A stretch of 64,000 bases of DNA from Gyrodactylus bullatarudis (Eukaryota > Platyhelminthes > Monogenea > Gyrodactylidea > Gyrodactylidae), in the NCBI GenBank assembly GCA_012064415.1, contig SSNU01000146.1:8268-72267 (forward strand), written 5' to 3'. Position 1 is the stretch's first letter, and the number at the start of each line of letters is the position of its first letter. Both the position numbers and the translations under genes were made by a program. A model generated the notes under the pieces. That model saw only the letters and a program-made list of their open reading frames with translations, ran no database searches and was not told where the DNA came from. Positions 5,250-63,912 of the stretch are shown here, piece after piece.

Positions 5250-8200
5250 ATATATTAACAGATAAAGTTTATTCTGAGGTTGGAATAATAAAGAGAAATA
5301 AACCAGGCACAGGAGATTGCTGGTATACTTTCTTGATTCCAAAAATGGTTGAACCCACTGCAACTATCGGTATGTAATATTTTTGGGGATAATTTTCAAA
5401 ATAGTGCAGGATAAGTAAGATCTTTTGAACTTTTGATATGTACTTAGACCAGATATTGTTGCTGCTTATGTGAATCAGTATGTTCTATTTTCTATAATGT
5501 CTATGTCTATTTGAAGAAATAATTTGATGAAATGAACTATTCTGAAAAAAATCTATTTTTTAAATAGACTTAGACAAAGAAAATTATCTCCAAAACTGAA
5601 ATATAGAGATGATGGGGCAACATTACTGAATAATGATTCTGAAACAAACCACATCAAAATAAAAACGCCTAAAAAATGTGAGCAACACCTTATTTTATTT
5701 TTCAAAGCCTAATTAATTACACGGTGCAACACAAAAAGATCAACCAAGCCGAAATTTACATATGTGGTGAAGTTGTGCGAATTGATTCTCACGATATTAT
5801 CCTTTTTTTCTCAAAGTTTTTTCCCGAGTTTTTTTCTTGGCATAACATCTCAGAATTCTTAAATTGATCAACATAAATAGGCTTAAAATAAAGATAAATC
5901 ATCAGTCTGTCAATAGTAATGACCTCTTAAAGTTCGCTCGCACACACAAGGTCACATGTAAACAGCATTCTGACAGTACCCTTTTTTTATTAATAGTGCA
6001 TTTTCCTCTACTACAATTTCCCCCTTGATTCTGATTGGCCAAAAAACGGAGAATTGCAACAGTGGTTATGAGAAAATGCATGTTCCATAATTACATACAA
6101 GCCTTAGCGAATATTTAATTGGTCTATTCCAAACTTTACGAGGTCATAACTATTGACAGAAAAATTTCACAAAATATAAGTTATATATTCTTGAGCAGCT
6201 TGAAGAGATGAATAATTTGATATGAATTTTATCCACAGGAAAATTTTATTGTTAAATTCAATCGATAAAAACAACTTTTGATCACTTAATCGGCTTAAAT
6301 AGATACGCGGTAACATTTAAGTATTATTTAAAACTATTATTGCCTAAATTGATGATATATCTTTATTTAAACCCTATTTATGTTGATCAATGTAAGAATC
6401 CTGAGATTTTATGCCACTTCTAAGAATAAACTTGAGAAAAAACTTTGAGGGCCGCTGGTGTCCGTAAAAAAATGTTGAGAGAAAAAAGGATAACATCACG
6501 AGAATCAATTCGCAAAACTACACCACATATGTAAATTTCGGCTTGGTTGATCTTTTTGTTAAAAATTCCATTTTTTTCTAAATTTTACTATTTTTTAGAT
6601 GAAGGTTTGAAATCTAAACTAACCGGTAACAAAAGTTTTATACAAAATATCGTTTTAAATAAAATTAAATCTAAAGATGAAAAACAAGCCTATCTTGAAA
6701 ATGAATAATGAATAATTTTGATTCTAGTATAACAAATATTAGATTCATGAATAAAGGCGATGCCAAGTTTGTTAAAGAATAGCGCGTTATTTCGTGGCAT
6801 ACTCATCAGCTTTTATATGCCATATTTATATACAAAAATTTTTCATTAACAAAGAATGGATCTGATTGGCCCTTCTTCTTGTTCAACTCCTCTGAAGTTA
6901 ACGCGAGTGTGCATTAGTGGACATTACTCTGTATTGCTTTTTTCTGTTATTTTGTGTTCATCGTGATGTGGGATGAGTGAGACTGTACGTGGGTATACTT
7001 GTTTGTGGGTTTTGTGAGTTTTTGAATAGATTCCTGTGGTCCTACATATTCGTAGAGTTAGTTTTGGGAGAAGTATTTCGTTATCTTCTTTTGATCTTGG
7101 TTACCTTCGGCCATATTTCTTTTTCTCGGCGTGTTTCTGGTTTGGGAATTGATTGTGATATCTTTCTTTTTCTTCGTTCCTGGCTGCTGTTCTTATTGTT
7201 GGTCTGGGGAAGGTTAGCGGTTTGACGGCTGATTTTTGTACACAGAGGTTAGGCTTTTCTTTTTCAATGAACAAAGCTTCTGCTGTCTTGAGAGCTGTTA
7301 AGTTTTTCCCTGGTTGCTTGTAAAGAATTTCAAAGTTAACAAATTTCTTTAACAAACTTGGCATCGCCTTTCTTCATGAATCTAACTATAGCTCAGGTTA
7401 AATCAGAGGTCACCCAACACCTCCCTTACAACAATAATTTTCGTTATGACCCCTTAATTAACACCATTTATAATTTATCGTTATAATTCTATTCTATATT
7501 ACTATAAGATAATTATAATTAGCCCCACAACAACAACACATCCAAAAAACCAATTTTACTAAATAATGTTGCATACCTGGCAACAGGTATGATCCAATCG
7601 AATTCTAAGAACAATTTCAACCAATAATTTAATTCCAAAAACCTATATATTTGGCATGTATCACACTGATGAGTATGCCCGAAAAACGCCTTATTTGTGA
7701 GGAAAAAAACCCATATTTTTACAAAATATTAGAAGTAAAATAAAAGCATGTTGCTTCAAGAAATAAATATTTTTCCTCTCATTTTTATATTTATCTGTTT
7801 TTTCGGTGGATCGATAGAATCGAAGAAAGCAAACAATCAATTAGAATCAATTAGTTTTTCTAATCCAAGATGAAAATTCTTTTTATTCTCTCATTGCTAT
7901 CAAGATTTTAGACTTATGCGATTTTTCAGTTTTGAAATAAATTTTAAATGTTTGGGAAGTATTGCCGAGCTTCTTCAAAAATATTTTCTGATTCTAATGA
8001 ACTATTCAGAGGATTTAGAAGACGAGTGAATATTTAGTTATGAAGCTAATATTTCACCGGTTCTCATCAGACTATTACACCGGCTAGATATGTATAGCTA
8101 AATTTATGATAAAACGAAATCCTTTGATGGGTTCTTTCGAATTGGAGCAGGAAAGGGTCAGGGTTGATGACTTGTATCTATGATCATTGCTTCCTTTTTA

Positions 8201-11440: not shown

Positions 11441-11459
11441 AAATATTAAAGTATAAGCT

Positions 11460-20637: not shown

Positions 20638-23600
20638 GTAATTTTCTTAATACATTTTTTTGAGATTTTTAATAAATATTAATGTGTAAGATGATTTTGT
20701 AAATTTAACAATAAATCTCAAATTTTGAATTAATAAAAATTAATAAAAAACTTTCTGAAAAAAAGTTTCTTAAAATGTTTCTAAACACATAAGAGAAAAC
20801 TAGTGTATATTGTATTTCGTCGGGTCTCTCCAGACTCTACCCAGTAACAATTAAATACTGTTACAATGCAAAATATATCATGGCTTCCATTGGCCCATTT
20901 GTGATCATTAGGGCCTCAAAAAGTCTTAAAAATCATATTTAAACCAGAGCTTTTCTCGGCTCTGAAAATCAAGTTAGGCTATTCAGATTTTCTTTTGGAC
21001 CCCAGGGTCCAGAGTTATAACATCTTATTATGTATTATTTATTCAATAAAGTATTATTTCTAAGATTTAATATCTATCCGTATTTTATATAATATACAAT
21101 AGGATGAGACATCAATAACACGTCATTTTATAGTGAACAAGGTAAATTGCTTTAATTTGGTTGGTTAGAAATATTCAAACCAATCAGAATGCACCACTTA
21201 ATTCATCTGGTGGCTAGGGTTCGGAACCCTTTACACCCATTAAGGTGGAGCCAATAGGAACAAAGAAAATTTTTCAACAGTCTGGAATTCTATTGGATTA
21301 CTTTATGTGAACAAATCAGAGTGTTGGAATTTTATCATTTTTATTGGTTAAACGATTTTTTGTTTGAAAGGGTTCAATGGGTTCAGAACCCTATATGTGG
21401 CGTAGGAAATCAAATATCATTTAGTCATGCAAAGACGTGCAACCATATTAATAGCTCTAACTCAATTTAAGAACCGAGAAGAGTTTTGATTTATTGAAAT
21501 TCTGATTTTTTTGAGTTTTCGAGTATTAATAAAAATATTTATTGAGAATAAAGTCTTGAAAATAAGATCTATAACGATAAAATCATATTTTTGGAAATCG
21601 TCAAAAAAAATCCTAAAAAAAATTTTTTAACGTATTATTATTTGAGGCCCTAGTGATCATATTTCAGCTCTAACTATAGGAAAAAAGAGTTTTCAATCTC
21701 CTCATACGAACACTAGTTTGTTTTCTCTTTTTCACAACTTTTATTATCAATGTACTTGCTATAAATTATTGATTATCAGCCCCAGCCAACATCTTACTGT
21801 TATCATTATTGTTTATAATTTCCTTTGTGTAGAGAAAAAAGGGGTGTAGGTTTGAGGATTTTCTTTTTTTTGGTTTTTATGTCGATCCTTGAATCTCTCA
21901 CCATTTTGGTTTTTTTGGTTAAAAACAATGAAATGGTGAGAGTTGTTTGGTGGGAAATAGTGCCAAGCATCCTCGAAAATTTTTACCTGAATCAGTAGAA
22001 ATATTCATTTCTTAGAGAATTTGGAAGACGAGTGAATAATGAGTAATAAAGCTTTTATTTCACCGGTTCTCATCAGACTCTTACACCGGCTGACATTTAT
22101 ATAGACAATAATGAGAAATTAAAAGTCCTCTGATTGGGCTTACGGGAATTGAAAGAATATCACAGGGGGGAGGTTAGGCTTTCACTGAGTTCATTGTCTT
22201 CTCTTGAGAAAGGGATCCAGTTGTAACTGCCTGCTATACCTTTTTCTTTTAACTCCTAATTTTTTAATTCAGTGATAATTACAGGTTGGGTATCAATTTG
22301 ATTATCAACTTCCGTTGACTTTTCTTGATTTGCATTTTCATCCTTAGCTGTAATTGTTACTGGGCATGAAGCGGGTACAATTTCAAGACTAACTGCAGAT
22401 TGAGAGCTAATTGGATTATCAGCTTCAGTTGACTCGTCTTGGATAGCATGGTTGTTCTCATCTGTAGTTGGGGTAGGAACGCTTAACAGAAGCTCAGTGA
22501 ATTGGGGATTTGATTCAACTAATTGCTCACTTGTAACTGTATTTTGAGTGGAGCTGGCTTAAGGAGAATCGTTCAGGAAATTAGCAACAAGAGCGATAAT
22601 CATTTTATTGAGTCCATTAATCAGGAATTTGTAGGCAATAGATTCTCGGTACTCAGTTGGGTATCAAAGGTGAAAAACGTTTTACACTAAAAAGTAAGCT
22701 CAAAAAATTGCTAATTTGCTTAACAATTCTCCTTTAGCTAGCTGGATAGGACTTCCCATAGCTACACCATCGCTTTGCTTATAGATCTGTCCTCAAAATT
22801 TGAAATCAATGTTCATTAAAGTCATGAATTTTTTTTCTGTTGCTGAAGGAATACTACATAGGGAAAGATATTTTGTTAACTGACCAAATATAAAAACAAC
22901 CATTTCTTTCACAATTTTTTCGAAAAATTCTTTTACAAAAAAATAAATTTTAAATAAATAAGCTGATGAAATTTTATTCATGATATTTTATTTTCAAGCC
23001 CGTATTTATATGAAAAATAGACAGAGGCGCAAAATGAAAGCTAGAAAAAAGAATCAAAGAAGAAAAAAACAGCAAATGAAAGAAGCATTATATGGAGACG
23101 ATCCACAATATGAATATCCAAGTAGTCCTCAGCAAGTATATAACTTCCCAAACACCACCACATCAGCGAGTGGAAATTCAAATCTTCGTAAATCATGTAA
23201 TTTTTATTATTCTTTAGTCAAAGACGAGCGAGTTCTTTTTTAATTATTTTCTTTGGAAATAACAGCATTGGAAAAGTATCCACTCTTGTGAATGAGTATT
23301 TATAGACATATTCTAATGAATTAAGAATACGGAAATCAAACAACGTTGCTGAGCTAAAGAATTCTACTGATCTCACAAATAAGTATAACACTGAGCTTTC
23401 CAATGGTTCTATTAGATCCGTGGATATAATTGAGATTCCTATAAATTCTGCAACAACGTGTAAGTGATCATCTGATTTTGAAAAATTTAGATTCAGAATT
23501 GGAAAATTTAATTATGAGTAATGAGGAATTCAATGAAAAGCTGTAATATTTTTTGTGCCTATACTTCAAACGAAATTGTATTCATATGATAATAGTTTTC

Positions 23601-26600
23601 TTCTATTGTCGTAAATTAGATTGAATTCACTCAATTATATTTTTTATGTCTATTTAGATTTTAACTTTCTTTCCAGACCAAGATAAAATAAAAACTCCTG
23701 GATACAAGGATGTTGAAATTTGTATAACAGAAAATTCATGTAAAATTTATTTGAGTCCTATATCGGAAGGATCGGAAAAAATAGGTATGTAGTTTCAAAT
23801 AACTAGCTTCAAATTCAAAAAGATCTCAATAAGTGAGCCATAATGTAATGCTTATTATAAAATTGGTGTTTAATGATGTTGCATTAGAGAGTCCTCCGAA
23901 TAACGTGATATATAAGCTTTATTGCTCATTATTCAGCTGTCTTCAAAGTTCACTAAAGTTCTCGATATTGTTTCGTCTTATATCTATAATCTCGAAGTTA
24001 TCTATCAATTTCAAGTAGATAAAACGAAAAACCTTCACTAAGTAATAAAGTATGCAAAAAAGCATACTCATGATCTGTAAATGCTTACAACGAGGATATT
24101 TCCTTTAGATCATTATTTCTATGGGATAAAATACATGCCACAGAGAAATCATCTTCAATAATGAAATAATTCCCTCATCAAGAATCTTGGTGAAAAACAG
24201 ATTGTAATTTAATAACAATTTATTATTTGATAACTTATATATAACTCTCATTAGGTATAGAAATCCCAATAAAATAATTTCTTTATTAATTATAAATGTA
24301 TAAGATAAATTTATTTAAAACAATATAATAAGTTTTCAATTATTTAGCGTGAATTCTTTATTGGAAAAATTGAATCTGTAAGTAACGATATATATACTCC
24401 TCTATCATTCTTTAAGCTGGCGTAAAGAAATAGGTAAATTGGAGCTTGATGTGGATTCGCAGTTATCTGATGATGCTTACATCGAATATCAAAATGACAA
24501 AAACAATATGAAAAATGCTGACTTTATTGAAATTCCCTTGACTAATGAAATCACCTGTACGTCAAATTTTATTAATATTTCTAAAGATGAGAAGTTTAAA
24601 ACTGAGATAGGAAAAGGTAATTCAATGTTTAATCTTGCTCAGCTAGCAAGAGTAAATACTGTTTAATAAATTTGAAATAGATGTACTTGACGACGAGGAT
24701 CATAAGAAATTAGGAGGTAAAATCGTGGAAGACAAAGATTCGAAAAAACTGTTACTTTTTTTAAGTCCAAAAATTAAGGATACAAGTTTCGGTAAGTGCT
24801 TTATTAGTTTTTTTTTCACAAATAACTAGATCCGAACAAGTGGGTGATTTCTAAAAATGTATATAAATTTTATTTATCTAACCATTATTTAATAATGAAT
24901 TCATTAAAAGGATTAGAAGATAAATTTATAAATAATTTTGAACCAAATAGTTCATATGTTCGGCATAGATCGACTATAACGTTGTTCGCTACCTGTCTAC
25001 TTCCTTGCATTGGCCTATTTTTAGAAGAGAAAAAGTCTGTAATATTTCTTTAAAAATAACGATTATAGAAAACTGAAATTAGGATTAGGATTAAAAACAA
25101 AAGAAATGGAGAACAGTCACAATTTTTCTGCCTTATATATGTGACTTGCAAGTGAATTTATCTAAGTCTAAGATCAAACAGTGGTTCAACATGTGTTTGG
25201 AAAAAAGTTTTACAATATCTAATGCTACCTAAACCAGTGCTGGGACCAAAACAGATTGTGAATAATAGGACACCAACTTTGGAAGCGAAAACTGTATTCC
25301 CAAAAAGAACTCTGAAACTTCAAATAAATTTTTTTAGTTTATACGCACAATGAAAGAATTCTCATACCTTCAAATAATTAATCAAGAAAAAATTTAATAA
25401 GATTTTTAAAGAAAATCAGACTATATCTTGAAAGGAAGAGATCTCTCATCGGACAGAAGAAGATTTCAATTTATTTACGGCAAGAAAGCAGAGACACGAG
25501 TAAATAGTTTTAACAAGGCAGTCAATCGAAAGTCCATGAGTCACGCAAATCTGATCGCTACCGAGGAGTCAAATTCCCTATATAAAAGAGATACGGATAT
25601 CAGCTGATTGTACCTACTACCTAAAGTCCACAAGGATATCCCGGAATTGCCATATAGACCCATACTAGATATGTCTTCAAGTCCTCAGCACAATCTTGTG
25701 AAATGGTAAACTGACAAACTTATGCCACTACGAAACCAATTATATTTACATTCTGTTTCTAATGCAATACAAGTCGAAAAAAGATCCGTCAGACTAATTT
25801 ATTTGGTTGCAAAATGATCTTTGATGTCTCTTTACTGTCTTAAAGAAACGGTCAAGTTCATCCATAATCAATTGGTTAAAATTCCATCTCTTTGCAGACG
25901 TAGTCGATGATTTAATATCTATGACAGTAAAAAACATCGATTTTAAAATATGCAGGAACTAATAAAAACGATTGATGGAGTTGCGATGAGTAGTCCAATT
26001 GGCCCGCTATTAGCAGATATTTGCCTAACTTCGTTTGAGCAAACATCCATGAATCCGACACAATCAATTTCATACATGGCGAGGCCCGTTATCCTTCTCC
26101 TTTGTTTTGGCTCCCCTTGCTCATAATATTATTACTCTCAGTTTGCTGCGCTGCATACCTGGCTAGCCTTCTTCTGTCCTCCGACATAAGAAACGTGATG
26201 TAATTCAAAATGTGTATCTATTTACAAAAAATCTTTATGGACAATGTTTAAAACCATTCTTTTTGAACACAAGCGACACAATATGACATGTTTTTTTCAC
26301 ATACGAAACATCCCTTTCTCGTTCTTTTACTAAACCTGTCAGCTAATAATATTGCTCCATTGCAACAACCAATGGGAAAAGACTTTCCTTCTCATTAATT
26401 TGTGTTTCATTAATTTGTCTTTTCATCTGAATTCTCAAATTTTCATTCAATAAGAAATCAATTGATTTCAAGTTAAAATTAATTCAATCAAAATCGTATA
26501 CGCTAGAAGCAGAATTAATAGAATCTTCAAACAGTTCCAAATTTTCGCGAACTTCAAAAGAGCCACATCTTTTCCAAGTTCAAGGAAGCTTCTATAATAA

Positions 26601-41600: not shown

Positions 41601-44600
41601 AAGGAATTCATTCGAAGATCAGAAAAAAAGTAATTAATATTAATTCAGCGAATCTCACCAGACTCTTAAGCTAGCTAGACCGGTCCTAACAACAATTGAG
41701 AGATTGGGGAAAACCTAAAGACATCACGGAATTTAATTTCGATTTTACTATTACTATTAAGACTTATTAAAAAGCGAAGCAAAAAGAGAAAGTTGTACGA
41801 AAATACCTTGAATAATACTCTCTATTCGTCACCAAAACCCAGAATCAGTAGAAGCAATTTAAGATTATTGATTTCTTCATAAATATAATAAAAATAAAGT
41901 TTATACGCTAGCTTCTCCCATTTCTTTGAGACCTCAATGTGATTTTCTCGCTTGAATCAGAAATAATTGAAGATAAGGATATTAGAAAAATTGAGCGTAT
42001 ATTTATATTTTTCTTCTATGAGAGTACGATATAAAATGGATATTAGGAATATTTTCTTTTATAGCATAAAAAAAGCCAATGAATTGATAAACAAGTAAAT
42101 TGATATTTTTATTCTAAAAATATTTTTTTCGTATTCTTGATACATATTTTACAGTAAAAACCCTTATTAGTAAATCTCTACTCAGTGGATCATTACAAGG
42201 AATTCATAGGTGTTCAAAGTTCTGTCATGCTCATTTTCGATTTTGAAATTAAAATTCAATCTTTAAACCTCAATCTGACAAAACGTCATGATTCATTCTT
42301 TAACAATATGTCTAGTATAGACTTTAACAAGGATTTTTATTCTCCTTGATTGGAATTACAATGATTGCATAATTCAATTTTTGTAAATTTGTACTTATAT
42401 GTATCACAATGATGAAATGTCCCGAAATAAAGGCCTTATTTGGGATCATCTTCTTCCTTCGTTTATTAATTAATATTATCATGCAATTAAAACCCACCGT
42501 AAAATTTTTCATGCTTTCGAATGAATAAAATAATACGCAATATATTTCCTTATGTTATTTGAGACCGAATTATCAGTTTTGTCGGTAAATATATTCAATT
42601 AAATTAACAATATTTGAATATAATTGTATTTAATAGATGGCGAAACGAAAATCAGAAGAACAAGTTGGATATTGACGAAACAAAAACAGATTCAATTAAA
42701 AAACAATATGATGTAGACAAAAAGAATATAACAGAAGGAGATTTTTTTGAAGTTCCTTTCAAGAATGATTTCAAATGTAAATATTTTTTAAAGTAAAATT
42801 AAATAATCAACAGATTCCAGTTTTAAGAAAAAGTTGGATAAAAGTACGGTATAGTTTTAATAAATGAATTAAAGAAATTCTTCAAGGCGATTATACACAA
42901 CTAGGAACAGTATACGATGAAACTAAAAATAGTATAGTAATATTTTGCATGCCGAAATCGGTACCAGTGAAAAAGAATGAAAAAATAAGTATGTTTGAAA
43001 ATGATTATTACCAACTTTTATATCGAAAGATCCCGATGAGTAAATTTAAAAGAATTACAATCATTTACTCAGTTTATCAAAAATTGTTACTTTCTTGAAC
43101 AAGTGAGTCTGGCTGCATTTAATATATTCGAACATAACAATATAAATTTATTATAGCCATAGAACAGCGAAAAACTATAAATCCTTTGAAATCGATGACG
43201 AAACTGGAAAAAGTGTTTTCCCTGAGTACAAAAAAACATCTAAAGCAAATTATGTTGAAATACCTTTTGATAATTCTACAAGTTGTAAGTGGAATAGTTT
43301 CAAAATTAGTTTCAATACTTACTTGCAATTTTTTTAAATATTAATCATTAGTTCAATACTTAATATTTATAGATGAGAAAGTTATAAAGATATTGGAAGA
43401 TGGTAAGCCAAGTTTCAATCTTTGTATTATTAAAAAAATAAGATAAGTGTAAGTAAAAAGATCAGATTTGGACGCTTGACTAATTATGAAATAATGAATC
43501 ATTTTTTATTTCAAGTGAACACACTAAGCTCAAATGACTTCAAATCAACAAGTGTTCAAAAGGTTTCTGATGATAAACTAGTTATTCTTTTTATGCCCAA
43601 AAGAATAAGCGGCAATAAAACAGTCAGTAAGTATTTTAAAAACATTGATTTATTATATCCTCAAAATACAATCAATTTTAGATAATGCTTTTGAATTAAT
43701 CAAGCAGAATTCACATATTATAATAGAAATTTAATTAATGAAAGTCATTCATTAGCTTAATAACCAAAAATAATAATAAATTATGTATAAAATATATATT
43801 ATATATGTTACCGTGAATATGGAAAATCATTGAATGGCAGAAAATCACTTTTTTAAATAGTAAATCGTTTATTTTCCCGGAAAAATGAGAAATTTTCACC
43901 CTTTTTACTGAAACCTTCTACGTGAAAATGGGAAATCAGGGAATGGACGGTAATCACTAGGAAAAATAGAATTATCTCAAAAAATGAGATTTTATTTTAT
44001 TCAAAGGGTTTGTTTCTCTAGTCATGTTTTCTTAATTATCATCAGATCACCAGATAAGCATATTAAGCATATTTTGGAATAAGAAAGAAATCTTATGATC
44101 AGGCCATTCCTCTTATCTCTGTTCTGTTGAGTTGAGCTTACGCGAGGGGGTGGGGCATTTGGTTTCAGAATGTTGCTAATTTTTGTCAGCTGTTTACTTT
44201 TTATATGAACCATCCGACCTTTGAAACCAAGTTTTGATGCTAAGATTCTCTATACACAAAGATCTGGCTTCCATTTCGTAATGTAGTGGCCTTCTGCGCT
44301 GTTCAGCATAGATTCTCTCACACGACAGGGGGGACTTGGATCGACTTGATATAGAATTTTGAAGTTAGACTCATCTGCGACGTGCCCTGTTTCCTTCAGA
44401 TGATTCTGTATTTTCGCCTTAACGACAAAGGAGAATTAATATGCAAGAAATGTTCGACTATCGTGCAAAGCTAGAAATCTTCTATTGTTCAGCACCTGAA
44501 GACCTAAACACCAAAAATCAGAAGCAAAAAATATTCAAACAACAATTGTCCGTGATGTTGACTGGTCTCGTGAGTTTGCAAGAGCATTTCTTGGAGTTAA

Positions 44601-47600
44601 TATTCCTCTTCACAAGCTGAAAACGGAGTCAATGAAATTACTCATCAATAAGCTCTCAATCAAGCTAGGCTCGAGTGAAACATGTCGAAACCAGCTAGAT
44701 AGCATTTATCAGGAGAAACTTGATGAAGCCGAGGTGCGTGAAACTAACGTAATAAATGTTCTTGTGGGAACTATTGCAGATCCGAAAAACTATAAAATTA
44801 GTACCATTACAGAATTCAAAGTTTAGCCTTCTCCTAGAATTTCATACTGAAATATTATTCCGGGTTAAAACTAGACTGTTTAAAATTGGATGCGTTCAAA
44901 ATTTTATTTCAATATTGAGAAAAGTCGTATTCCTAATTTTCCTAACCGATTCCTAAAAAGGGGAGGAGTGGTTGCCACATACTTTGCTTAAGTTAGAAAT
45001 ATGATCACTCGTATTCATTCATACAAAAAATAATTATCGACATGGTCTATCTAGTTAGAAACAAAAATATACTATAAACTCAGTCAAAATGTAAATAAAA
45101 TTTTTGGTATAATGAATTACAAATTGGATTTATTATTTATTGAAATCTAAAACACTAGAATTATGTAAAAGCAGAGCAATTCTATACATCTTCCATGAAC
45201 CATTCAAGCTTAGCACAGAAAAATATTGTTGAGATCATCAAGTTTTTTCTTCTCTTCTATTCTTATTTCAAGATCTTCTGTACTGGAATTATACCGGTAT
45301 TTTTCCAGCATTTGCGGATTTTTTTCTGAACGAACATTCTTCCAAACATGATTTGCAATGTCTATCGTGTCAGCCAGGTTAAAAGGTTTTGAGAAATCAA
45401 CAATTTGTACGACGCTTCATGTCCAAATTTCTGTTATAAGCTCTTACGACTCCATTTTTGAAAAAATATTATTCAAAGCTATTGATGTAAAACACATCAG
45501 GAATCCTACTTAGAAATCAAAAATTAACTGTGCTTAAATTGAATTAGTTGATTGATATTCATGGTAACATATATATACAAATGTTATATAATGCCAACTT
45601 TTCGAGCTAATGGTACGGTTGGTACTTGCACAGCTTATTTGTGGAGCAAATTTCAAAATAATGCACTATTTATAATAATTACTCAATGTGTACTCAAGCT
45701 AATCGGTCATAATATCAAGATTTAGATGACTTAAACGAGTTAGCTAAGCAATTGATAAGTAATTTTTCAAAAGATTGAAGAGTTATATCAATATGTGAGT
45801 TTCATTGATTAAAAAAAAATCTCATCTGTTTTTTGATCAAAGGAGGAGAAGACAAAAAAAGACAGCCGAGTACGGTGACTCGAATGAGGACTTAGTTAAA
45901 CTTGTGGCTGCTGTAGATAAAAAGAAGCCAGTACAAGCGGACTATATCAAATTAGATTATAAAGAAAATACAAAATGTAAGAAGTACTATTCGCATTAAT
46001 TTTCGAAGTTAGTAGTGTTGAAAACAGTTTGAAAGATTGTAAGCGTGGTTAAATAGATATCCAAAATTTAAACTGTAATTAAATCTCAGTTAACTCAAGT
46101 AAGTCTTAATAATAATATTTAAAAAATTTGTTCAAAAGAATTATTTTCGGAGCCTAATTATGGAAATATTGCTTTGGCTCCAAGTACGGACAAGAAACAT
46201 ATATACATATTTTTACTGCCAAAGATTTACAAAGAAACTGAAACAATTAGTATGTTAATATTATGATTACCTTGTTTATTACAGATTTGAAAGAGTTACT
46301 TATTTTTCTAAATATGCATTTAGCTCAAATTCAATAATTGCATACATTAATCAGTAAGAAAATGTTATTGCTTATATTTTAGGCTTTGCGATAAGTAATG
46401 GGACTCCAACTTCGATAAAGATTTTTTTCTTCAAAACTAGAATAAATTCAAACAATTTCGGTAGCCTAGGAAAGATAATTTATTGGATAATTTTAAAATT
46501 GAAAAGCATCAATATTTCCAAGTATTTTGATTAGAAAGATTTTCGGCAGATTGCCAGATTTATGCCAGAGAACTTTCAAAAAGATCGAATATTTTTTTGA
46601 AGATTGGATAAAGCGTTCTAGAGCATTCAAGTGGCATTCCATCTTGTATAAAAATTCCTGATTTTCCAAACTTTTTTTAGGAGAAGAACTTCCATGTCTT
46701 AGGTCGTCTCTCTAATAATCCTCACCATTTCAAAATTCTAGAAACTTTTCTAAATTTCAAATCGAAAAATGATTTGGAAATTGATTTTGATCACTTCAAA
46801 ATCTGAAGAAATCTTTGCTTATGGGATTATAAAACGACAAATTCTTTAGGAGAAATGTCTTGATCAATTGGGAAGCTAGTTTCACTGATTTCTAATTTAT
46901 CTTTCTAAAGTTTCTTGCAATAAAACCATTATTTTTTATTCAGTCTCGTTACTTAGCGCCCAACCTAATATTTCAAACAAATGAATTGATGATAAATTTA
47001 TCTAGAAAAAGAGAAAAAAATGGAGCTGATCCAATCGAAAGAAATCCGAGCAAGGACATTATTGACTCTTATTCCAAAGATAGTAATAATGTCGACGCAG
47101 ATATCTTAATGGTAGAGAAAAATAAAATTAAAAAATGTTAGTTTACAAATATAATGAGGAATATATGTGTTTCAAACTGTTCATTTAAACTATAGAAAAT
47201 AAACACAGGTAGAAAAGTTTAAAAGGTTTTTTCTAATCTTTTAGTTGAAGATTTAAAAAAATTTTTGGAGAATTGTGAGTTATTAGTCATAATTAACTTT
47301 AACTGGTTGAAGAATTACGTTGAAAATAATCTGTTCACAATCCCATGTAAAAAATGAATGCTTAGTATGTGAATGCTGAATTGGATGTCTTTAATAAGAG
47401 GTCCAAGGACAGAGCAGTCAGGCAGAGATCTTCATGGACGAGAATAAATATTTCTTACCATGATTATGTCTCCTCTTCCTAGTCTAGATAGATTGAGTTA
47501 TTTACAATACTGATAGCTACTACAGACAAAGTCAGCTGTAAGCATCTCAGCAGTTAAAGACTCTGAGGATAATAGTATCGATAGAAAAGCCTTCAATTGT

Positions 47601-53664: not shown

Positions 53665-54124
53665 CATGCTCTCAATGTTTGCACAACTAACCAATAATAT
53701 TAGGAATCAGTTACAAAATAAAATAAGTACTATTGCTCAATCACACACGCAACAAGAACTCTAGAAAACACACATGCCCAAAATTCAATACTCACGTCCT
53801 TAAAATTCGCTCGAATTGAAAGATACTTGAAAGAAGAAATAAACACAGACTAGAACTTGATCAAATTCACACACAAAGAGGATCTGTTTAAAAATCACGT
53901 GAGACCGATCTCTATCAATATCTTAGCTACATTTTCATTTCATTTCTTTACTAAAGAGCTGAAAAAATTGATCCTACATCGATCTTAATAAGTTAAATTA
54001 TAACAAGATTCTATAAGCTTATCACAACAAAGGAATTTGCTCAAAGCTGCTTAAATATCTTGAAAACTACTTAATAAATAAAAATTGTGTAATGTAATGC
54101 TTAAAGGTCAACTTTAAGAAAAAT
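53665..54124. other. Intergenic DNA, no feature seen
   Basis: AT-rich, with short A runs; nothing recognisable. Confidence 0.35.
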
Positions 54125-55369: not shown

Positions 55370-56153
55370 GATCCAGCCAAAAGATGAATGAAGACCAAAA
55401 CCAGAAGAAAAAAATAAAAGGATTTAAAATAAACCGAAGAAAAAATAAAAGTATGAGGTGGATTATTCTATATTTATCCTTCTAGTTATTGTTAAAATGA
55501 TAGGTAAATCAAATATTTGATTTTTTGATTCAAGAAGGAAAGCATATATGTAAGATATGACTGCCTAAAAGAAGTTGTAATAATTTTAGTGAGGAAAGCT
55601 AGAGGTGGGAACACTCATTGATTTTTCATAATTATAAAGTTGGTCTTTATCAGTGTGAGTTTAACCTCATTTTTTTTAAAACAATAATAGGTGGATCCCC
55701 AAAAATCCGTAAGTTATTTTTTAATTTTCTTACTTAAATAATTATTAACAGAGGAGCAACTAATAAAAGCCTCGAGACGCTTCAACAATACAGGTAATTT
55801 TTTTTAAATTAATTTCTAGATATCTCGAGCACAGGTATTATCTAAGTTCCAAAAAATAACAAAAATGAATTAATTAAATTTAGCAAAAATCTATATAAGA
55901 GAAAATTTGAGACGTGGGGGTCTGCGTAAAAGAGTTAAGCGGAAAAAACCTGCCAAAACAGCAAACGATGGAGAAGAGGATGAGGAGGAAGATGATAAAG
56001 AAGATAATTCTAAAGTACCAGAACTTTCAGCAGCCAAACAAAAAGCATCTTCAACTACTCCGGGTACATCAGCTAATCAACCTAATAAAACAACACTATT
56101 GAATGCAAATGATCCAAAAGAACCCAATGAGCAGGAAAAAAATAAAAAAATAG
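55370..56153 (+). CDS. Gene 3 5' block with 18-, 42- and 15-nt microexons
   Basis: 55370-55450 (81 nt, KKKIKGFKINRRKNKS), 55691-55708 (18 nt, GSPKI), 55752-55793 (42 nt, EQLIKASRRFNNT), 55820-55834 (15 nt, ISST), 55884-56153 (270 nt). All phase 1-1, with TAG or CAG acceptors for the last four. A second open frame at 55914-56102 overlaps the last exon but does not fit the paralog and is rejected. Confidence 0.7.
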
Positions 56154-59100
56154 GTTCGTCAAAAGAGTCAAGATTTACCAATTTTTACATTGAAATTTTG
56201 AATTTTTTTATTATTTTACATGTATAGATATGATGTATATTGGGTTGATTACAAAAAGTCTAAGTGATATATATGGTTATTAACAAATTTACATGTTCTA
56301 TAATCATGCATGAGAAAATATATATTTACTTGGCCAACGTTTTTCCACAATTTCCATTAGTAAGCATAGAAGTTTCATTTATGTAAAGTTGAGTTCAGGT
56401 GATATGGTATACATACATCGAATATTTTTAGAATTTTTTTAAAACAGGATCCTTGAAATTGGCTCTAAATTATTTTATTATACTTTTAATAATTGTAAAC
56501 GAATAATTTTCAATAGCTTATTTCAATTTCATTCCAGTTAGAAGTTCTTTTAATAACTTATTCCGCTCATTGTTAGACTCTAAAGAGTATGAAAAATAAA
56601 AAATAATAATTTTCGATATAGCTCCAATGCTTTGATTAAGATTATTAATGAGTAAGCCTTATAAAGTATGACTCGATCTCTTTTCATATTTTTCCTATTC
56701 CAGTTTACGTAAAAAGAACTCTCTGTCAGAAATCAAGCTGGATAAACCTTTTGCAACGGCATGTATTCAGGAGAACAAAAATGGCAATCTAAAATCAGGG
56801 GATATCTATGAATTTCCTTTTAATGCAAACGCTACATGTGTGTAAAATCATTTTAAAGTTAATAAATTTAGATAAAGATTTTGAAACTTTCATAGAAAGT
56901 AAGTATGTAAAATCAATTTCTAATTGAGTAAAATTCTTAAATCATTGAACCAATTAAAAAATTAAAATCCTCTTAATGAATAGTTCATTAGAATTAGAGT
57001 ATATTATAATTCTCAGTCATTGGTCATTCATGAATTTTGAAAGTGATTGCTCACATACCCTCTATATGAATACAATAATTTCATTGAATATCTGTGAATT
57101 TTTTGCTTCAAATGGAGGACTCATTGTGAGGATTTAGAAGTCAATTGAAATTATTTAGTGATAAAACTTATATTTTACCGTATCTCAAAAATTTGCTTAC
57201 TCACGCAAGTTAGCATACTTACGGTTAGTATGCTTACTTACGTTTTTTTACGTAAAAGTCCTTACCTAGTAAGCACTTTCACGTTTTTCGAATATTTCTA
57301 TCCCCAGTAAGCATATCTACGGTAAGTATGCTTACTTACTTATTTTTAAATTTAAGTCCTCAATAGTTTTATCATGAAAATCTTCTAGCATAAATAAGAC
57401 ACTTTGTTGACACTCTTAGAGCATGTTAAAAAGTGGATAATCTCATGGGGGTTTAAACTTGAAACTTCTATAGAAGAAGATAAACAATTTGATCTTTTTT
57501 CAAGTTATTGCACTAAATTTCTCGTGAAGTAACAAAAAGTATTTTATTACAAGATGGGTCACGTATAGTTGGCTAATAGGGGATAGTTAATGACTATTAA
57601 TCATGCAAAAAGTGTAAGAGTTAAATCTATCACATACTCTAGTCTATTTAAACCAATCAGAATTGTTTGGCATGAACATTTTTAGACTAATCATATCATA
57701 ACTTACACTATTTAAGTCTTTTTTTAGTTGAAACATTTAATTCTTATCTAAATGCTATCTACCACTGATATGGAAAAAAACTTTTCGCTGTTTGGAAAAT
57801 AATGTAAAATGCAATTCTAGATGCCATAAGATTCGTTCTTGTCGAAATAAATGAAAACTTTATAATTTTTAATAAATAGACAATAATTCTTATTTATGCT
57901 AGAAGATTTTCATGATAAAACTATTGAGGACTTAAATTTAAAAATAAGTAAGTAAGCATACTTACCGTAGATATGCTTACTGGGGATAGAAATATTCGAA
58001 AAACGTGAAAGTGCTTACTAGGTAAGGACTTTTACGTAAAAAATCGTAAGTAAGCATACTAACCGTAAGTATGCTAACTTACGTGAGTAAGCAAATTTAC
58101 GGTGACATATATACTGTTAAATTATAGATAATTTTTTAAAATAAAATCCGCTGATTGGTTCAATCAGATTTAAGCACATGAAAAGGGGACAGAGGAGTTA
58201 GTTTCTTATCTTTTGATTCCTCCTGACGTATCTATCCATTTTCAGTTGCCCACTTAGACTTTTAAGTTTTCTTCCTCTCTTTGTCTTTGTAGGTGTGGAT
58301 TCTTTTGCATTTATGATTTCGCTAATTACAGGTTTTGAGATAATTATATTAACAACTTTCACAGACTTGTCACTTGCTCTCACATTTGTAATTGTAGCTG
58401 GGACAGAAGACTGTAGTTGATTGAATTGAGATGTATATTCAACTACTTGCTCGTTTTGTTCACTAGTTGATTCAACTACTGAGTTGAGCTAGCTAGTTGA
58501 AACGCTTCTCTCCTGTGAATTCCAATTGAGTGACTAACTTCTTCGGCTTCCACAGATCAGGTTTAAGTACTTTGATATCATGGGGTTTGGCTTCCTTGTT
58601 TTCTGATAGTACGGCTTGAAACAAGATACTGAAAATGCTCACATCAGTGATTTGTGGCATTTAAATGTTCCAGTTCTCTGATGCTCCTTAATTCGCGCCT
58701 TCACAGGTCTTACTGTTTGCTAATCCATTAATAATTATTAACATTTAAACGAATAAATCACGCTCTTCTTTTTCAACCATAACGTAGGGTCTTTGCTTTT
58801 TGTTTTTGGTAAATTACGTAATTAATGACCAGGAAATGTCTTCTCAAACAACTTATTGTTCAGGATTTGGTGAGCTGTGTCCCCTTTAAATGGTAACTTC
58901 AAATACACCGGGGTCAATTCATTCACTGTTTAGTTGATTTGTTAAGAAGTAAACCCTTTATTAACGAGTTCTATTCTAGATACTGATGCAGTAAAGAATT
59001 TGGATTATAAGCAAGCTGGTCTATCTTCAAACAAAGATAAAATTAACATTTTTCTCGGCCCTAAAAATCAACCAGCAATAGATCCAAATAAAGTTGGTAA

Positions 59101-62100
59101 GGGCTAATTTAATTTTGAAACAATGCAAATTTGTTAAAGATTTATCTGCGTAAGAATTCACTATGAATTAATGAATTTTTATTATCGCATTACTCATTTC
59201 AGATTTGATCCAACAGCCCAAAAGATTTCAGAGTTTGTTTACTTTCAGAATATAGAGTCCTTATTATGCACAAAATTCTAGGTGGAGGAAAAATAATTCA
59301 AAAGCTGATATGGTTTACGATACACAATTATCAAATGATGCATATACAGAATATCAAAATGATAAAAACAATGTTTCAAAAGCTGATGTTTTTGAGCTTA
59401 CATTGCCTGATGGAATAACATGTTGGTTAAGTTTTTATATTTAATATTCTTTAGACGATCAATTGAAAAATGATTTGGAAACCCGTAAGTAACTTTCTTA
59501 TATTTTAATGATAAAGTATTATATTTAAATTTCATTCTTGAATCAGGAAATTAGATTGATCGTTTGATGCATTGAGTCAGAATTACTGATATAAATTTAA
59601 CTATAGATACTGAATTTTTAAATATAATTATATCCCGAGATTATATTTTATTGGAAATTTACAAAATATAGTAAATTTCAAATCTATTTCAGAAACTTCA
59701 AGTAAGTACTATTTTTACCACATTCTTAACGTAATTCTTAGATTGAAATATTTAATTTTTTCTTGTTCTGAATATAGCCAATAAACAGTTTCAAAATTAT
59801 CAATTAGAATTCACTTCTAGTTTTAACATACTTTACTTCAGAAATTTTGGCGGATGAAAGTTATAAGAACTTTGGTGGACAATTAATTGATGATAATGGT
59901 TCAAAGAAAATGCTGGTTTTCCTAAGTCCAAAATCAAGCCCTGCCAGTTTAGTTTTAGGTATGTAAATTAAAGAAAAAAATTTGAAATTCTCTGTAAAGA
60001 TCCAAATGAGTGAGCACGGTTTTCTTGAACGTCTATTCGAGGAATGTTGATCAGTGACCAATGTTCACACATCTGTTTTAATTTCTTAAATGTTCCCAAC
60101 ATGTTTCATGTATAAATAAATATCGAGAGTCGGTGTTTGGTTTGAAAAAAACTGACAAATCACTAAAAAAAACTTTCGTTGGTTCTTGACTCCAACATGA
60201 CTCAGAAAAACGAAAATTTAGATTTACTTAATTTATCGTGAAATCGTCGCTACCCTTCATCGCCTAAAGCACAGATTTCAAGTCGATGCATTTAAAAACC
60301 AGAATACCATACATATATTATCCTTTATTTTTAACTTTGTACCAGATAACCATGATATTTACAAACTTTTTAAATAATAATCTTACATATGTTGTGTAGA
60401 ATTTGGATAATTTGCTGATTATTCATAATTAGCAAAAACCTGAAGAATATACATAGTTTTATTCAAATTCATCAGGTTTTTGCCAACTATGCATAATTTG
60501 CAAGATATAAGACGAATATGAAAAATAAAGAATCAAGGTGGATGGGGAATCGATCTAGCTTATATGTATGAAATATGTTTTATAGTTTTAATTAAATGAC
60601 AAATACAGATTTATATCATTTCTTTCGATAAATATTCATATTTAAATAACGTATTTTCTTAAAATAATATTTTGTCTACTAATTTTATATACTTTCTTAA
60701 AGTTAAATTATAAAAGTCTTTCCCCCCTCATTGTACATGGTATATTTAAAATAGAGTGGGTCCCTAATTTGTAATTTTGAAAATTGAAAAAAGTAACCCA
60801 AGATTTTATAATAACTTAAATAGGTAGATTAAGAAAATATAAATTAGAATTCTTGATCTTCAGTCATCGGAAGCCTACTTCAAAGTAGATTGGTTAAAAT
60901 TTTATTTTAGTTTGAAAAATTTAATAATAATTTTCCGTTTTCTTGATATAAGATATAAATTCATTGAAAAATATTACCTAAGCTGCTGTTCTCACATTAG
61001 CTTTGTTTGAAAATATGTTTATGATATTTAGTGATATTCATGGGATCAGATATTTAGTTATCTGATTTATCCAAAGATGTATTGTTGAATCAATTATTTA
61101 AACTAAAATATTCAGCTGCAGCTTTCAAGATTAGGTTCATTAATAACATCATTATAAGTTTCTGATTTTCGCAAATGTCACAGGAATCTTCGTTATATTC
61201 TGAAATTATCGTGAAACGATTTTCTATAAGTCATAATGAATTTTTTTATTCGTGTATTATCTTACAAGTTGTAAAGAGATTCTGGACCATCAAAAATTCT
61301 AAAAGCATTTTTGAACAAGCTAGGTCAAAATAAATCCCATATTCAACGTCCCTTCAATAGTATGAAAAGTTGGGTGACTTTCTTACGATTCATGGAGGGA
61401 CCCGCTCCAATATATAAGAAATGTTTCTACACCTCTACCCATACCATAATACATACCTGGCTTTATAATTTATCCCTTATTAAATTATGGATCATAAATT
61501 TTTGATTTTTAGGCAATCAAAAAACCTTTTAAATTAAAAAGTTAATGTATTTTTCTTTTTGATTTCACGCCCTAAATTTTCTTATCTTTAATTTAGTAGT
61601 TGAGACTCTAAGCGTTAAATGGAAGCATTGTTTCTAGATTTAATAAACAATAATAAACAGGCATTTCCATTGTGTAAAGTTTTGTGCTTTTTGATCAAAA
61701 AAATTGACTCCTCTAGTTTTTCGAAGTTTGCTTATGTAGTTGTTATTTTGAAAAATTTTCTGGATTTGAAAGCATTTGAATATTTTAATGAATTCTGTGT
61801 GAATGAAATAAAAAACACTCGACTTGTGAAGAATTCAATCTTATACATACAATATAGATCAGAAAATTTAGAGCTTGATATCAAAAAGATTTGACATTAT
61901 ACTATTGATAACTTCTTGATTGGCTAAGAGTTAAAAATTTATTAGGGAGAAATATTAAAGATGCGGAGGGGAAAAAAGTATATGGAGCAGAGAGATAGAA
62001 ATATTTCTTCTTCTTATGAAAAAAAGGCTTCACCTCAAATTTAATACTAAATACAGTTGCAAAAAGTAGGGTGTGCCCTTTCCCATATGCCAAATCTGAG

Positions 62101-63912
62101 GAAAAACATTAATCACTGAACTAAAATAATGAACTGATGAATGAAATAGAGATTATTTATTCTGTTTTGTAAAGAAGTAAAAAGCGCTGACCAGTCTCAG
62201 TTGTCAATGGGGAACTTGATGTGATAATCTCAAATTCAGTAAATGAATAGTAGTTGTTGGGTTTTGATTTACTGAATAATTGAGAGTTAATATTAATATA
62301 AATGTTTTGACTTGTCTGAGCTTCCACTTCCGAGGTTTGGGGATGATTTAACTAAAATCTAGACTACTGACTCAATTAAAATACTTTTTTAGCTCAAAAA
62401 AAATAATTGCATTCATAAATGAGTGAGAAATCTCTTGATAAGGATAAAACTATCTCACGTATTCCACATATAATTAGGCAAAGAAAATCAAACAATGAAA
62501 GTGATCTTGCAGAAGATGAACAAACAAAAAATGCGGCGATTGCAAAATTTCAAGTTGATAAGCAATCAATAACTGAAGCTGATTTTGTGGAAATACCGTA
62601 TACAGGCTCAACTTCAAGTACAATTCATATGCTTAATTTCTTTCAGTGGATGATTTTAAAACCGCACTTCAAGCTGGTGAGTAGAAAGGATTCACGCTCG
62701 GGAATTTAATCTTTATTCATTTTACTAGCAAATATTGGTAAGAGTTTTTCGACGATTGTTAACTTTTAGACTTTACCAAAACTAAGGATTATGCTAACAT
62801 CGGCCTTTTGAACAATGAAGCTGAAAAAAAAATAGTTATATTCGGAATGCCAAAAAAGAATTCTGGCTTAAATAATCCGAATGTTATTGGTAAGAAATTA
62901 ACAATGAATTTACACAGATAATTGTAAACAGATACTTCAAAGTAAAATTTTTTCAATAAATTTTATATGATTAATAATTACAAAAAATCAATTTTAGACC
63001 CCAAGACATTCCTACTTTTATAAATGAGTATGTTATAACTAAATATCTCATTTGAAAACTCCTTCAATTCTTTTAGCATACATCAAAATCTTCATAATAT
63101 TAGTGATAGGAATTATAATTTACCATAATTCTTTTAATTATTTTTAAAATAGACAATAATGCTTATCCGAATTTCTAACATCTAGGTGTGAGAAGACAAT
63201 CTCCATCAAGTTAGAGTTCACATGGATATAGTAATTACCAGTGACCACACTTTGCTAGTAGGTTAATTGTCTAAAAACACTGTAATTTCCATATGGTGCT
63301 TATTTACAAAAAAACAGTGTGTAGGTGGTGTCAATACTATGGGAGTGTGGAGTAATAGGAGATGAACGGGGGTTCTGGCCTAGTGGTTAGAAGCGTTGCC
63401 TCACAACGTTGAAGACCTGGGTTCGAATCCTGGCTATGGCGTACTGACGAGTCCTAATAAGGACGAAACGCGTCTGCATCTGCCACCTTGAGTTGAATAT
63501 TATTCGACTCTCTTATGGAATTTACACTTGCTTATCCGAATTTCTAACATCTAGGTGTGAGAAGAAAATCTCCATCAAGTTAGAGTTCACATGGATATAG
63601 TAATTACCAGTGACCACACTTTGTAAGTAGGTTAATTGTCTAAAAACACTGTAATTTCTAAATGGTGCTTATTTACAGACAACAATGATCTTTTACAGAT
63701 GCCGAAAAGAAAATAAGAAAAATGCATTACCAGTTGACGAGACTCTTGCTAAACAAGTTATTTCTGAATATGAGGCAGATAGTAAAAATGTCTCGTCTGG
63801 AGACTTCATTGAAATCGATTTGAAGCCAGATATGAAATGTTAGTTTTTTTCAAATTATTATCTTGGCACTTATTTGTGTTAGATGAAGAGTTAAAGGATG
63901 AAATCAATAAAG
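55370..63912 (+). CDS. Gene 3: modular microexon gene, at least four units, runs off the right edge
   Basis: Exon chain: 55370-55450, 55691-55708, 55752-55793, 55820-55834, 55884-56153, then units 1-4. Phases and small-exon lengths copy gene 2, so genes 2 and 3 are tandem paralogs in the same orientation. The second basic exon (KIYIRENLRRGG then LRKRVKRKKPAK) continues into an acidic E/D-rich run and an S/T/N/P-rich linker, and is longer (270 nt) than in gene 2 (189 nt). Function unknown; a basic-acidic cytoplasmic or nuclear tail is possible. Neither first exon nor stop codon is in the window. Confidence 0.65.
56361..59096 (+). CDS. Gene 3 unit 1
   Basis: D 56361-56382 (22 nt, matching the 22-nt D of gene 2 unit 1), A 56704-56837 (LRKKNSLSEIKLDKP...SGDIYEFPFNANAT), B 56872-56898 (27 nt, as in gene 2 unit 1; KDFETFIE), C 58980-59096 (LDYKQAGLSSNKDKINIF then LGPK). 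The A-B intron is 34 nt. The B-C intron carries the inverted repeat at 57189-58098 and a PLE fragment. Confidence 0.7.
57189..58098. repeat. Inverted repeat, 210-bp arms, rich in GTAAGTATGCTTAC
   Basis: 57189-57398 and 57889-58098 are inverted copies. Inside each arm the motif TAAGCATACTTAC and its inverse recur (three clusters per arm), so the arms are themselves built from small palindromes. The spacer of 490 bp has no open frame. Probably a non-autonomous DNA element in the gene 3 unit 1 intron. Confidence 0.75.
58198..58960 (-). pseudogene. PLE GIY-YIG and tail fragment
   Basis: Minus strand: LPFKGDTAHQILNNKLFEKT at about 58900-58840 (linker), VKARIKEHQRTGTFKCH and a KPYYQKTRKPNPMISKYLNL piece (second half of the endonuclease, frameshifted), then a tail 58383-58198 (KRGRKLKSLSGQLKMDRYV). 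The GIY-YIG core is deleted. Confidence 0.65.
59140..59958 (+). CDS. Gene 3 unit 2
   Basis: D 59140-59149 (DLSA), A 59282-59421 (WRKNNSKADMVYDTQL...SKADVFELTLPDGIT), B 59455-59484 (YDQLKNDLET), C 59842-59958 (DESYKNFGGQLIDDNGSKKM then LVFLSPK). The A-B intron is 33 nt. Closest relative is gene 2 unit 2 (both have DAYxEYQNDKNN and FLSPK), which aligns unit order between the paralogs. Confidence 0.72.
60000..62889 (+). CDS. Gene 3 unit 3
   Basis: D 60000-60009 (DPN plus GA), A 62478-62617 (QRKSNNESDLAEDEQT...EADFVEIPYTGSTS), B 62647-62676 (MDDFKTALQA), C 62770-62889 (KDYANIGLLNNEAEKKIVIF then GMPKK). The A-B intron is 29 nt. The A exon is preceded by an in-frame open stretch from 62419, but the TAG acceptor at 62477 fits the other units. 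Confidence 0.7.
60010..62470 (+). other. Gene 3 intron with an unassigned 91-codon frame
   Basis: Intron between D and A of unit 3. It includes a decayed hammerhead-family repeat (60110-60175, related to 11880-11930), a small inverted pair near 60385-60500 (AATTTGGATAATTTGC with GCATAATTTGCAAG-like sequence), and an open frame 61619-61894 encoding 91 residues that I do not recognise. No splice sites or relatives support the frame as a gene. Confidence 0.3.
63160..63308. repeat. 149-bp direct repeat, copy 1
   Basis: TGCTTATCCGAATTTC... to ...TGCTTATTTACA. The second copy is at 63529-63676, with few differences, and a partial copy of its end is at 26688-26740. The two flank the hammerhead SINE. 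Confidence 0.8.
63365..63530 (+). mobile_element. tRNA-derived SINE with an internal hammerhead ribozyme
   Basis: A Pol III A box (TGGCCTAGTGG, 63376-63386) and a canonical B box (GGTTCGAATCC, 63420-63430) are spaced as in a tRNA, with an anticodon-arm-like CGTTG/CAACG stem between them. A full hammerhead follows directly at 63432-63490. The combination is that of the Sm-alpha type of SINE known from schistosomes. It ends before the second copy of the flanking direct repeat. It lies in a gene 3 intron. Confidence 0.85.
63432..63490 (+). ncRNA. Hammerhead ribozyme of the SINE
   Basis: CUGACGA core (63444-63450), helix II GUCC/GGAC with loop UAAUAA (63451-63464), GAAA (63465-63468), helix III of two pairs (AC/GU) with loop GC, and a canonical GUC cleavage site at 63472-63474. 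Helix I pairs GUA with UGC, with bulges further out. Unlike the PLE ribozymes here it has a full helix II. Confidence 0.88.
63529..63676. repeat. 149-bp direct repeat, copy 2
   Basis: Second copy of 63160-63308. It ends 21 bp before the acceptor of the next gene 3 exon. Confidence 0.8.
63698..63912 (+). CDS. Gene 3 unit 4 (A, B), continues off the window
   Basis: A 63698-63838 (141 nt; KNALPVDETLAKQVISEYEA, SSGDFIEIDLKPDMK), B 63883-63912 (30 nt, YEELKDEINK). Here the A exon is in frame only if entered in phase 1 (GAT GCC GAA AAG...), not phase 2 as in all other units. This would join C directly to A and make a separate D exon unnecessary; it reads as if D and A were fused. A one-base insertion in the A run at 63717-63722 is the alternative. 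Confidence 0.65.

Follow-up and report, generated by a model that had tools for sequence, protein, structure and literature searches.

A probable cluster of paralogous genes built from microexon-bearing repeat units in Gyrodactylus bullatarudis

Introduction

What kind of gene is assembled from a recurring set of exons, some of them only 10 or 30 nt long? The question is raised by the window, as we call the whole 64,000-nt stretch of Gyrodactylus bullatarudis DNA analyzed here (contig C148, positions 8268 to 72267). In it an earlier note, made from the letters alone, had described a tandem family of microexon-bearing units on one strand. Such a family was seen both on C148 and on a second contig, C152, of the 77.3-Mb assembly of 471 contigs. 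Below we describe the exons, the genes that they form, the history of the units, and what can be said of the encoded domain.

Results

Exon classes and the repeat unit

The repeat unit comprises about 100 residues and five exons, three of them 10 to 30 nt long, in the order D (10 nt), E (30 nt), A (110 to 140 nt), B (27 or 30 nt), and C (mostly 105 to 126 nt). The module had been given as D-A-B-C; those four classes exist, and the entry phases proposed for them (D, 1; A, 2; B, 1; C, 1) fit the annotated exons, but the 30-nt class E (phase 2 to 2) had been missed. Both ends of the array as first delimited, 5250 and 63912, are exact exon edges, of a C exon and a B exon, respectively (Table 1).

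Exons were collected from motif matches, then by profile iteration in the window, and then by a search of the rest of C148 and of C152:256001-339857. On a single strand of the two contigs, 25 A, 23 B, 24 C, 24 D, and 24 E exons were annotated, with 13 A, 13 B, 12 C, 12 D, and 12 E exons in the window. Inside units, every D exon was 10 nt (24/24) and every E exon 30 nt (24/24), and the 25 A exons measured 110 to 140 nt. B exons were 27 nt long in 5 of 23 cases and 30 nt long in 18, and the 23 C exons comprised 21 multiples of three and 2 terminal exons; the 24th C exon is the one that opens Table 1. The 22-nt D of the earlier note can be an E exon read from an internal AG. An AG 8 nt into the exon was present in 3 of 24 E exons, where about 1 is expected from base composition (calculated by hand), few enough to be chance.

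A profile search of stop-to-stop frames on both strands, in which no splice rule was applied, returned 23 A and 20 C matches at E < 0.01 from C148 and C152:256-340 kb, and none of these 43 matches lay on the opposite strand. An AG stood precisely at the phase-2 start in 22 of the 23 A matches (the exception, U8, begins 6 nt further in), the first listed donors of A matches were preceded by T in 18 of 22 cases, and C exons could be bounded by a phase-1 acceptor and a phase-1 donor. Scored enumeration added divergent members, including two stop-ending C exons. All 119 exons of units follow an AG and end at GT (115), GC (2), or a stop (2), a count that is to be read with the fact that candidates were partly picked by those same splice marks. 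The weak members include the terminal C exon at 9900-9982 (score, 13.7) and the A exon at 47006-47136 (17.1), compared with an opposite-strand best of 12.9; divergent members near that value rest also on order and splice sites.

Classes D and E were first noticed on reading the exon flanks, with D shortly past C and E before A. A matrix made from 17 E exons chosen by eye was run over both strands of 169 kb and gave 23 matches, all on the coding strand and scoring 14.4 to 25.2, while the next-best score on either strand was 3.7. It re-found 16 of the 17 training exons (the missing one had a weak donor and fell under the filter) and added seven, among them the E exons of U5 and U6; all seven lie between a C exon and the following A exon or just ahead of the first A exon. 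An open, D-like AG-10nt-GT/GC exon stood 34 to 48 nt past 19 of 22 C donors, compared with 33 of 1,003 donor-like sites on both strands; the remaining three C donors had a candidate with a nonconsensus donor, a candidate 788 nt away, and none. D is thus a general class. The exon modules are genuine. Exons of classes B, C, and E are symmetric, whereas D (10 nt) and A (2 mod 3) preserve the frame only jointly; the prediction is therefore that D and A are always spliced in, and that E or B might be used alternatively.

Table 1. Exons and units of genes 0, A, and B, in window positions except where C148 is named
Feature	Positions	Strand	Exons and remarks
Gene 0, C exon of upstream unit	5250..5369	+	HMM match, AG and GT, phase 1 to 1; its A and B exons were looked for and not found
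Gene 0, last unit U1	5405..9982	+	D 5405-5414, E 5448-5477, A 5568-5677, B 6599-6625, stop-bearing terminal C 9900-9982; A and terminal C divergent, their assignment resting on inspection by eye, exon order, and splice sites
Gene A, leader exon	22999..23187	+	K- and R-rich; place matches the large leaders of genes B, C, and D
Gene A, U2 (position 1)	23218..23784	+	D 23218-23227 (GC donor), E 23266-23295, A 23326-23459, B 23491-23517 (27 nt), C 23677-23784
Gene A, U3 (position 2)	23823..24791	+	D 23823-23832, E 24348-24377, A 24417-24556, B 24587-24616, C 24681-24791
Gene A, U4 (position 3)	24830..27783	+	D 24830-24839, E 27148-27177, A 27304-27419 (GC donor), B 27447-27476, C 27670-27783
Gene A, U5 (position 4)	27827..40593	+	D 27827-27836, E 36701-36730, A 39858-39997, B 40082-40111, C 40477-40593; introns long, holding transposon-like frames
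Gene A, U6 (position 5)	40636..42988	+	D 40636-40645, E 42065-42094, A 42637-42776, B 42814-42843, C 42875-42988
Gene A, U7 (position 6)	43030..43626	+	D 43030-43039, E 43073-43102, A 43157-43284, B 43373-43402, C 43516-43626
Gene A, U8	45843..46249	+	A 45843-45976, B 46009-46038 (weak acceptor), C 46139-46249; D and E ahead of A not found
Gene A, U9 (partial)	46285..47274	+	D 46285-46294 (weak donor), E 46324-46353, A 47006-47136 (weak HMM match), B 47245-47274; a terminal C exon was not located
Gene B, leader	55691..56153	+	18-nt 55691-55708, 42-nt 55752-55793, 15-nt 55820-55834, 270-nt basic/acidic 55884-56153; by eye, then spliced
Gene B, U10 (position 1)	56577..59096	+	D 56577-56586, E 56622-56651, A 56704-56837, B 56872-56898 (27 nt), C 58980-59096
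Gene B, U11 (position 2)	59140..59958	+	D 59140-59149, E 59203-59232, A 59282-59421, B 59455-59484, C 59842-59958
Gene B, U12 (position 3)	60000..62889	+	D 60000-60009, E 62393-62422, A 62478-62617, B 62647-62676, C 62770-62889
Gene B, U13 (position 4)	62932..63912	+	D 62932-62941, E 62998-63027, A 63699-63838, B 63883-63912
Gene B, U13 C exon	C148 72307-72414	+	just beyond the window; followed by U14 and partial U15

Organization of the genes

The units were assigned to at least five paralogous genes, namely, 0, A, and B on C148 and C and D on C152. Genes A and B cover much of the window, and gene 0 is known from its 3' end alone. Genes A to D each open with a large leader exon followed by a D exon; the leader is K/R-rich in all four and also E/D-rich in B, C, and D, where it is preceded by exons of 18, 42, and 15 nt. 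That series was not found in gene A. The four genes with first units carry positions 1 to 5 and 0 to 3 further, more divergent domains; gene C is without a position-4 unit, and the order along the genes is otherwise the same. Spliced without the first exon, the products have 693 (A, to U7), 655 (B, to U14), 555 (C, minus V2), and 627 (D) residues. In V7 of gene D the first acceptor leads to a stop at the B-C joint, and an acceptor 15 nt downstream is needed; exons are missing from U8 and U9, and low scores were obtained for a few of the splice sites. A C exon of 249 nt in unit V3 of gene C (C152; L034:8420-8668, minus strand) holds an inserted Gly/Ser-rich repeat of about 45 residues, situated at a domain end.

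A donor scan and cross-gene comparison gave no shared candidate for the N-terminal exon. A hydrophobic candidate exon upstream of gene B fits the phase; neither gene C nor gene D yielded a counterpart. The search of genes B, C, and D for a signal peptide was negative, and their first exon likewise was not found. Stop-bearing C exons occur at 9900-9982 (gene 0) and in gene C. The earlier note had put stops in the last C exons of its genes 1 and 2: the stop of gene 1 holds, but gene 2 (gene A here) seems to continue past 46249 into the D, E, A, and B exons of U9, some with weak sites. The 3' ends of genes A, B, and D were not found; C148 stops 4.6 kb past the last gene B exon seen.

Searches of the whole genome with five protein queries, in which the best candidates only were scored and the first three queries had approximate exon joints, gave 53 matches at E values up to 10, with 50 on C148 and C152 and the other three on C115, C352, and C470 (E, 0.55 to 6.4). 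The C115 match (C115:423411-423683, minus strand) is weak and of unit length (33%; query residues 7 to 98; E, 0.55) and lies inside a 1,557-residue open frame; it is possibly an intronless relative or chance.

History of the units and selection

In a maximum-likelihood tree of 23 units, U1 of gene 0 among them, units grouped by place in the gene and not by gene: position 1 (U2, U10, V1, and V6; support, 100/99), position 2 (U3, U11, V2, and V7; 86/86), position 3 (U4, U12, V3, and V8; 96/96), position 4 (U5, U13, and V9; 87/87), position 5 (U6, U14, V4, and V10; 81/87), and a last group (U7, U8, V5, and U1; 84/76). The strict support mark of the tree tool was reached solely by groups 1 and 3, and U1 and V5 are long branches whose placement the tool rates unsure. 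Grouping by position indicates that the ordered array predates the gene copies and that whole genes were duplicated. It had been suggested that a module with outer phases 1-1 can be duplicated freely; the tree leads us to reject such free shuffling of modules.

Comparison of 24 same-position pairs gave pN of 0.32 to 0.47, pS of 0.59 to 0.91, and pN/pS of 0.38 to 0.74, compared with ratios of 1.02 to 1.09 in a simple simulated neutral baseline, the pS of which reached 0.59. Corrected dS was undefined (saturated) in 16 of the pairs and 1.14 to 2.36 in 8. Identity at codon positions 1, 2, and 3 was 57, 69, and 38%, respectively (2,485 codon pairs). Over equal stretches, between-unit likeness was 0.50 for D versus 0.36 and 0.37 for the flanking introns and 0.47 for E versus 0.33 and 0.34. 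Same-position units are under purifying selection, and the locus looks like working coding sequence rather than decay.

Homology of the encoded domain

The earlier note had not recognized the protein, and a profile of 20 units likewise had no match at E 1 (339 candidates) in 5.8 billion protein sequences, including UniRef and nr entries; the 627-residue gene D product had none at E 10 (8,000 candidates sharing most words), with candidates in both searches confined to 0.55 to 1.75 of the query length. Some weak matches were to CAP domains. Pfam PF00188 matched weakly in 2 of 5 sequences, 2 of 20 units, and 3 of 24 E+A segments (overlapping sets), within profile positions 1 to 31 and at 13.9 to 15.2 bits where shown (best E, 0.029); no unit reached its curated cutoff of 21.1 bits. 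NCBIfam spore_YkwD (TIGR02909), which we take to be a CAP model, matched 2 of 20 units (best E, 0.072). The best PDB match was 4d53, BB0689 (E, 0.042 with 20 units and 0.028 with the E+A segments of 24 units), which PMC11784157 assigns to the CAP superfamily.

Profile comparison with hhalign against 10/11 bacterial CAP domains aligned unit columns 7 to 38 locally with CAP columns 4 to 35 (score, 22.2; P, 0.0036). The N-terminal half gave a P of 0.00086 and a score of 20.2, the best of eight half-profile comparisons, while 60 column-shuffled profiles scored 9.9 at most. The C-terminal half gave a P of 0.21 at best, global alignment failed, and seven CAP proteins of the same genome compared with the unit gave a Prob of 0.3%. 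Single units had better E values with unrelated families, namely, PF22780 (0.00086; 2 of 20 units), PF17961 (0.003), and NF041809 (0.0034; 1 of 20).

CAP proteins are defined by conserved cavity histidines and acidic residues and by an alpha-beta-alpha sandwich fold. No histidine is conserved in the 20-unit alignment A3, which contains 10 cysteines in total (counted by eye); this scarcity of cysteine speaks for a protein without disulfide bracing. At the sequence level, the N-terminal half (E plus the first part of A) is similar to the opening helices of CAP domains, and the chances of a CAP-like ancestry of the domain appear roughly even. Because no CAP cutoff was reached and the other half is unlike CAP, membership is not established, and we do not file the family there. 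Nor do we claim that the A/B intron is a reused ordinary CAP intron: the place is similar, and the phases are 2 versus 1. Across the genome, there are 78 CAP matches (65 over the Pfam cutoff), which represent a VAL family that is large and of the ordinary kind; as many of the matches are pieces of exons, the number of genes is smaller. Clusters of these matches include those on C118, C194, C239, C442, and C470, and none lie on C148 or C152.

Surroundings of the genes

GC content was 27 to 38% in 30 of the 32 2-kb bins of the window, in which neither Rfam at gathering level nor ARAGORN gave a match. In an intron of gene B, 63370-63486 holds a tRNA-like stretch (by eye; ARAGORN negative) and then a type I hammerhead ribozyme match (63438-63486; 21.6 bits versus a gathering threshold of 34; E, 0.0056 in 261 bases), flanked by two 95% copies of a 154-nt repeat (63160-63313 and 63529-63682). 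Frames at 37604-39031 (minus strand), 48528-50696 (plus), and 17658-18535 (plus) look, by eye, like pieces of Penelope-like reverse transcriptase and of GIY-YIG sequence. Also by eye, 31998-34696 holds zinc-knuckle, RT-like, and integrase-like frames, perhaps of a Gypsy-type element, and 857-4764 holds a hAT-like transposase frame between inverted repeats (857-929/4692-4764 and 955-1099/4537-4681; 96 to 97% complementary), with a 38-nt tandem duplication at 2191-2271. Four long inverted repeats (8642-9588, 28044-31626, 53345-53667, and 57189-58098) are 99 to 100% complementary and are probably recent DNA elements; three of them sit in introns of the genes described. On the mitochondrial contig, C13, COX1 has 12 in-frame TGA codons and is open under codes 4, 5, and 9; by eye, AAA reads as N at conserved COX1 places, and nad1 and nad3 frames lie upstream. 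This COX1 matched best a cluster named Gyrodactylus albolacustris (90% of residues), ahead of Macrogyrodactylus karibae (86%), Cichlidarus nyanzae (85%), Paragyrodactylus variegatus (84%), and Benedenia seriolae (73%).

Discussion

We think it probable that at least five paralogous genes are clustered here, each encoding an ordered array of domains of about 100 residues spelled with microexons, and that the array is older than the gene duplication. An ancestral gene would already have carried the ordered array, and whole-gene duplication would have produced the cluster. Exons D and E would supply the joint and the first helix of each domain and B a helix linking its two halves; splicing of D would be obligatory, and that of E or B could vary. 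The array may present many binding sites that diverged by position, and the most likely role is that of a multivalent binding or scaffold protein whose domains diverged to different partners.

The fold of the domain is a separate matter. It may be a degenerate, cysteine-poor CAP-like fold, with E and the start of A forming helices 1 and 2, B forming helix 3, and C forming the last strands, a mapping for which the statistics speak in the N-terminal half. In its fullest and rather doubtful form, this reading has long arrays arising in the Gyrodactylus lineage from a CAP-like fold that lost its cysteines and cavity residues and was split into five exons, with the frame-locked 10-nt/30-nt pair at the joints letting splicing set the linker and helix-1 length of each domain. 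The same genes could instead encode a wholly new fold whose first helix pair became CAP-like by convergence of amphipathic helices, to which we give somewhat less than an even chance. A C-terminal half free of CAP signal, cutoffs never reached, better E values from PF22780 and NF041809, and the lack of a homologue among 5.8 billion proteins favor convergence. Against it weigh the N-terminal matches to the CAP family in three databases (Pfam, NCBIfam, and PDB) and the match to a bacterial CAP profile, which scored well over column shuffles.

Whatever the fold, the genes might be of the schistosome micro-exon gene (MEG) type, secreted and with symmetric microexons skipped to give a pool of variants. 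The genome is that of a flatworm, B, E, and the 18-, 42-, and 15-nt leader exons are all multiples of three, and MEG and VAL genes are both placed at the schistosome host interface, with VAL-6 part MEG-like, in PMC4350168. We nevertheless consider this improbable: microexons make up about 21% of a typical unit (D+E+B, 70 of about 327 nt) and not most of it, skipping of D alone would break the frame, and no signal peptide was found, though neither was the first exon. Decayed pseudogenes, transposon pieces, or chance exon-like signals would suit the many inverted repeats and transposon-like frames in introns and spacers and the incompleteness of some units. That the units are pieces of a transposon, an alternative named in the earlier note, was checked: no transposon family is among the 25 Pfam families listed for 20 units, and none of the 14 window frames of at least 120 residues overlaps an annotated exon. 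With frames open across old duplicates, selection at the protein level, a single-strand order, and E exons found by the scan where predicted, decay or chance is very hard to credit.

No reports of such genes in monogeneans were found in the literature searched, and neither "microexon" nor "micro-exon" occurs in the main texts of two monogenean genome papers (PMC12677651 and PMC10308649). The family is gene content missing from a large protein database, and its approximately 24 repeats with 10-nt and 30-nt exons at fixed places form a natural series for studying how very small exons are recognized. The genus Gyrodactylus includes a notifiable fish parasite.

Comparison with known systems

Comparison with the microexon genes of parasitic flatworms, as in the earlier note, is apt for Gyrodactylus. 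In schistosome MEGs, according to PMC4350168, very small symmetric exons make up most of the coding region and there is a signal peptide; the exon lengths are divisible by three, as PMC4413821 has it. Shared with these are the parasitic flatworm genome, many very short exons with ordinary splice sites, and a protein for which no match was found. In Gyrodactylus, however, the coding length lies mainly in the longer A and C exons, the 10 nt of D cannot be divided by three, homologous domains follow one another in a set order along the protein, and a signal peptide was looked for but not found. Judged by the published description, the likeness is partial, and these are not typical schistosome MEGs.

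With the CAP/SCP-TAPS/VAL family (PF00188), the likeness is that the first helix pair of the unit matches CAP profiles; the units differ in being without conserved cysteines, in having five exons per domain and domains in arrays, and in a second half without a significant match. In five CAP genes from the same genome, the W..E helix is preceded by a phase-2 intron, compared with phase 1 in the units (by eye). The nearest precedent seen for CAP combined with microexons is Schistosoma mansoni VAL-6, a CAP gene of which part has MEG-like small symmetric exons and which is hypothesized to be composite (PMC4350168). There the MEG-like portion is part of one gene, whereas in Gyrodactylus the microexons lie inside each repeat domain. 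Aphid bicycle genes, described in PMC9168663 as fast diverging, known by many small exons of constant phase, and with nearly all internal exons in phase 2, are alike in style only: the Gyrodactylus genes, in a different phylum, have five exon classes, a fixed phase cycle, and a repeated domain.
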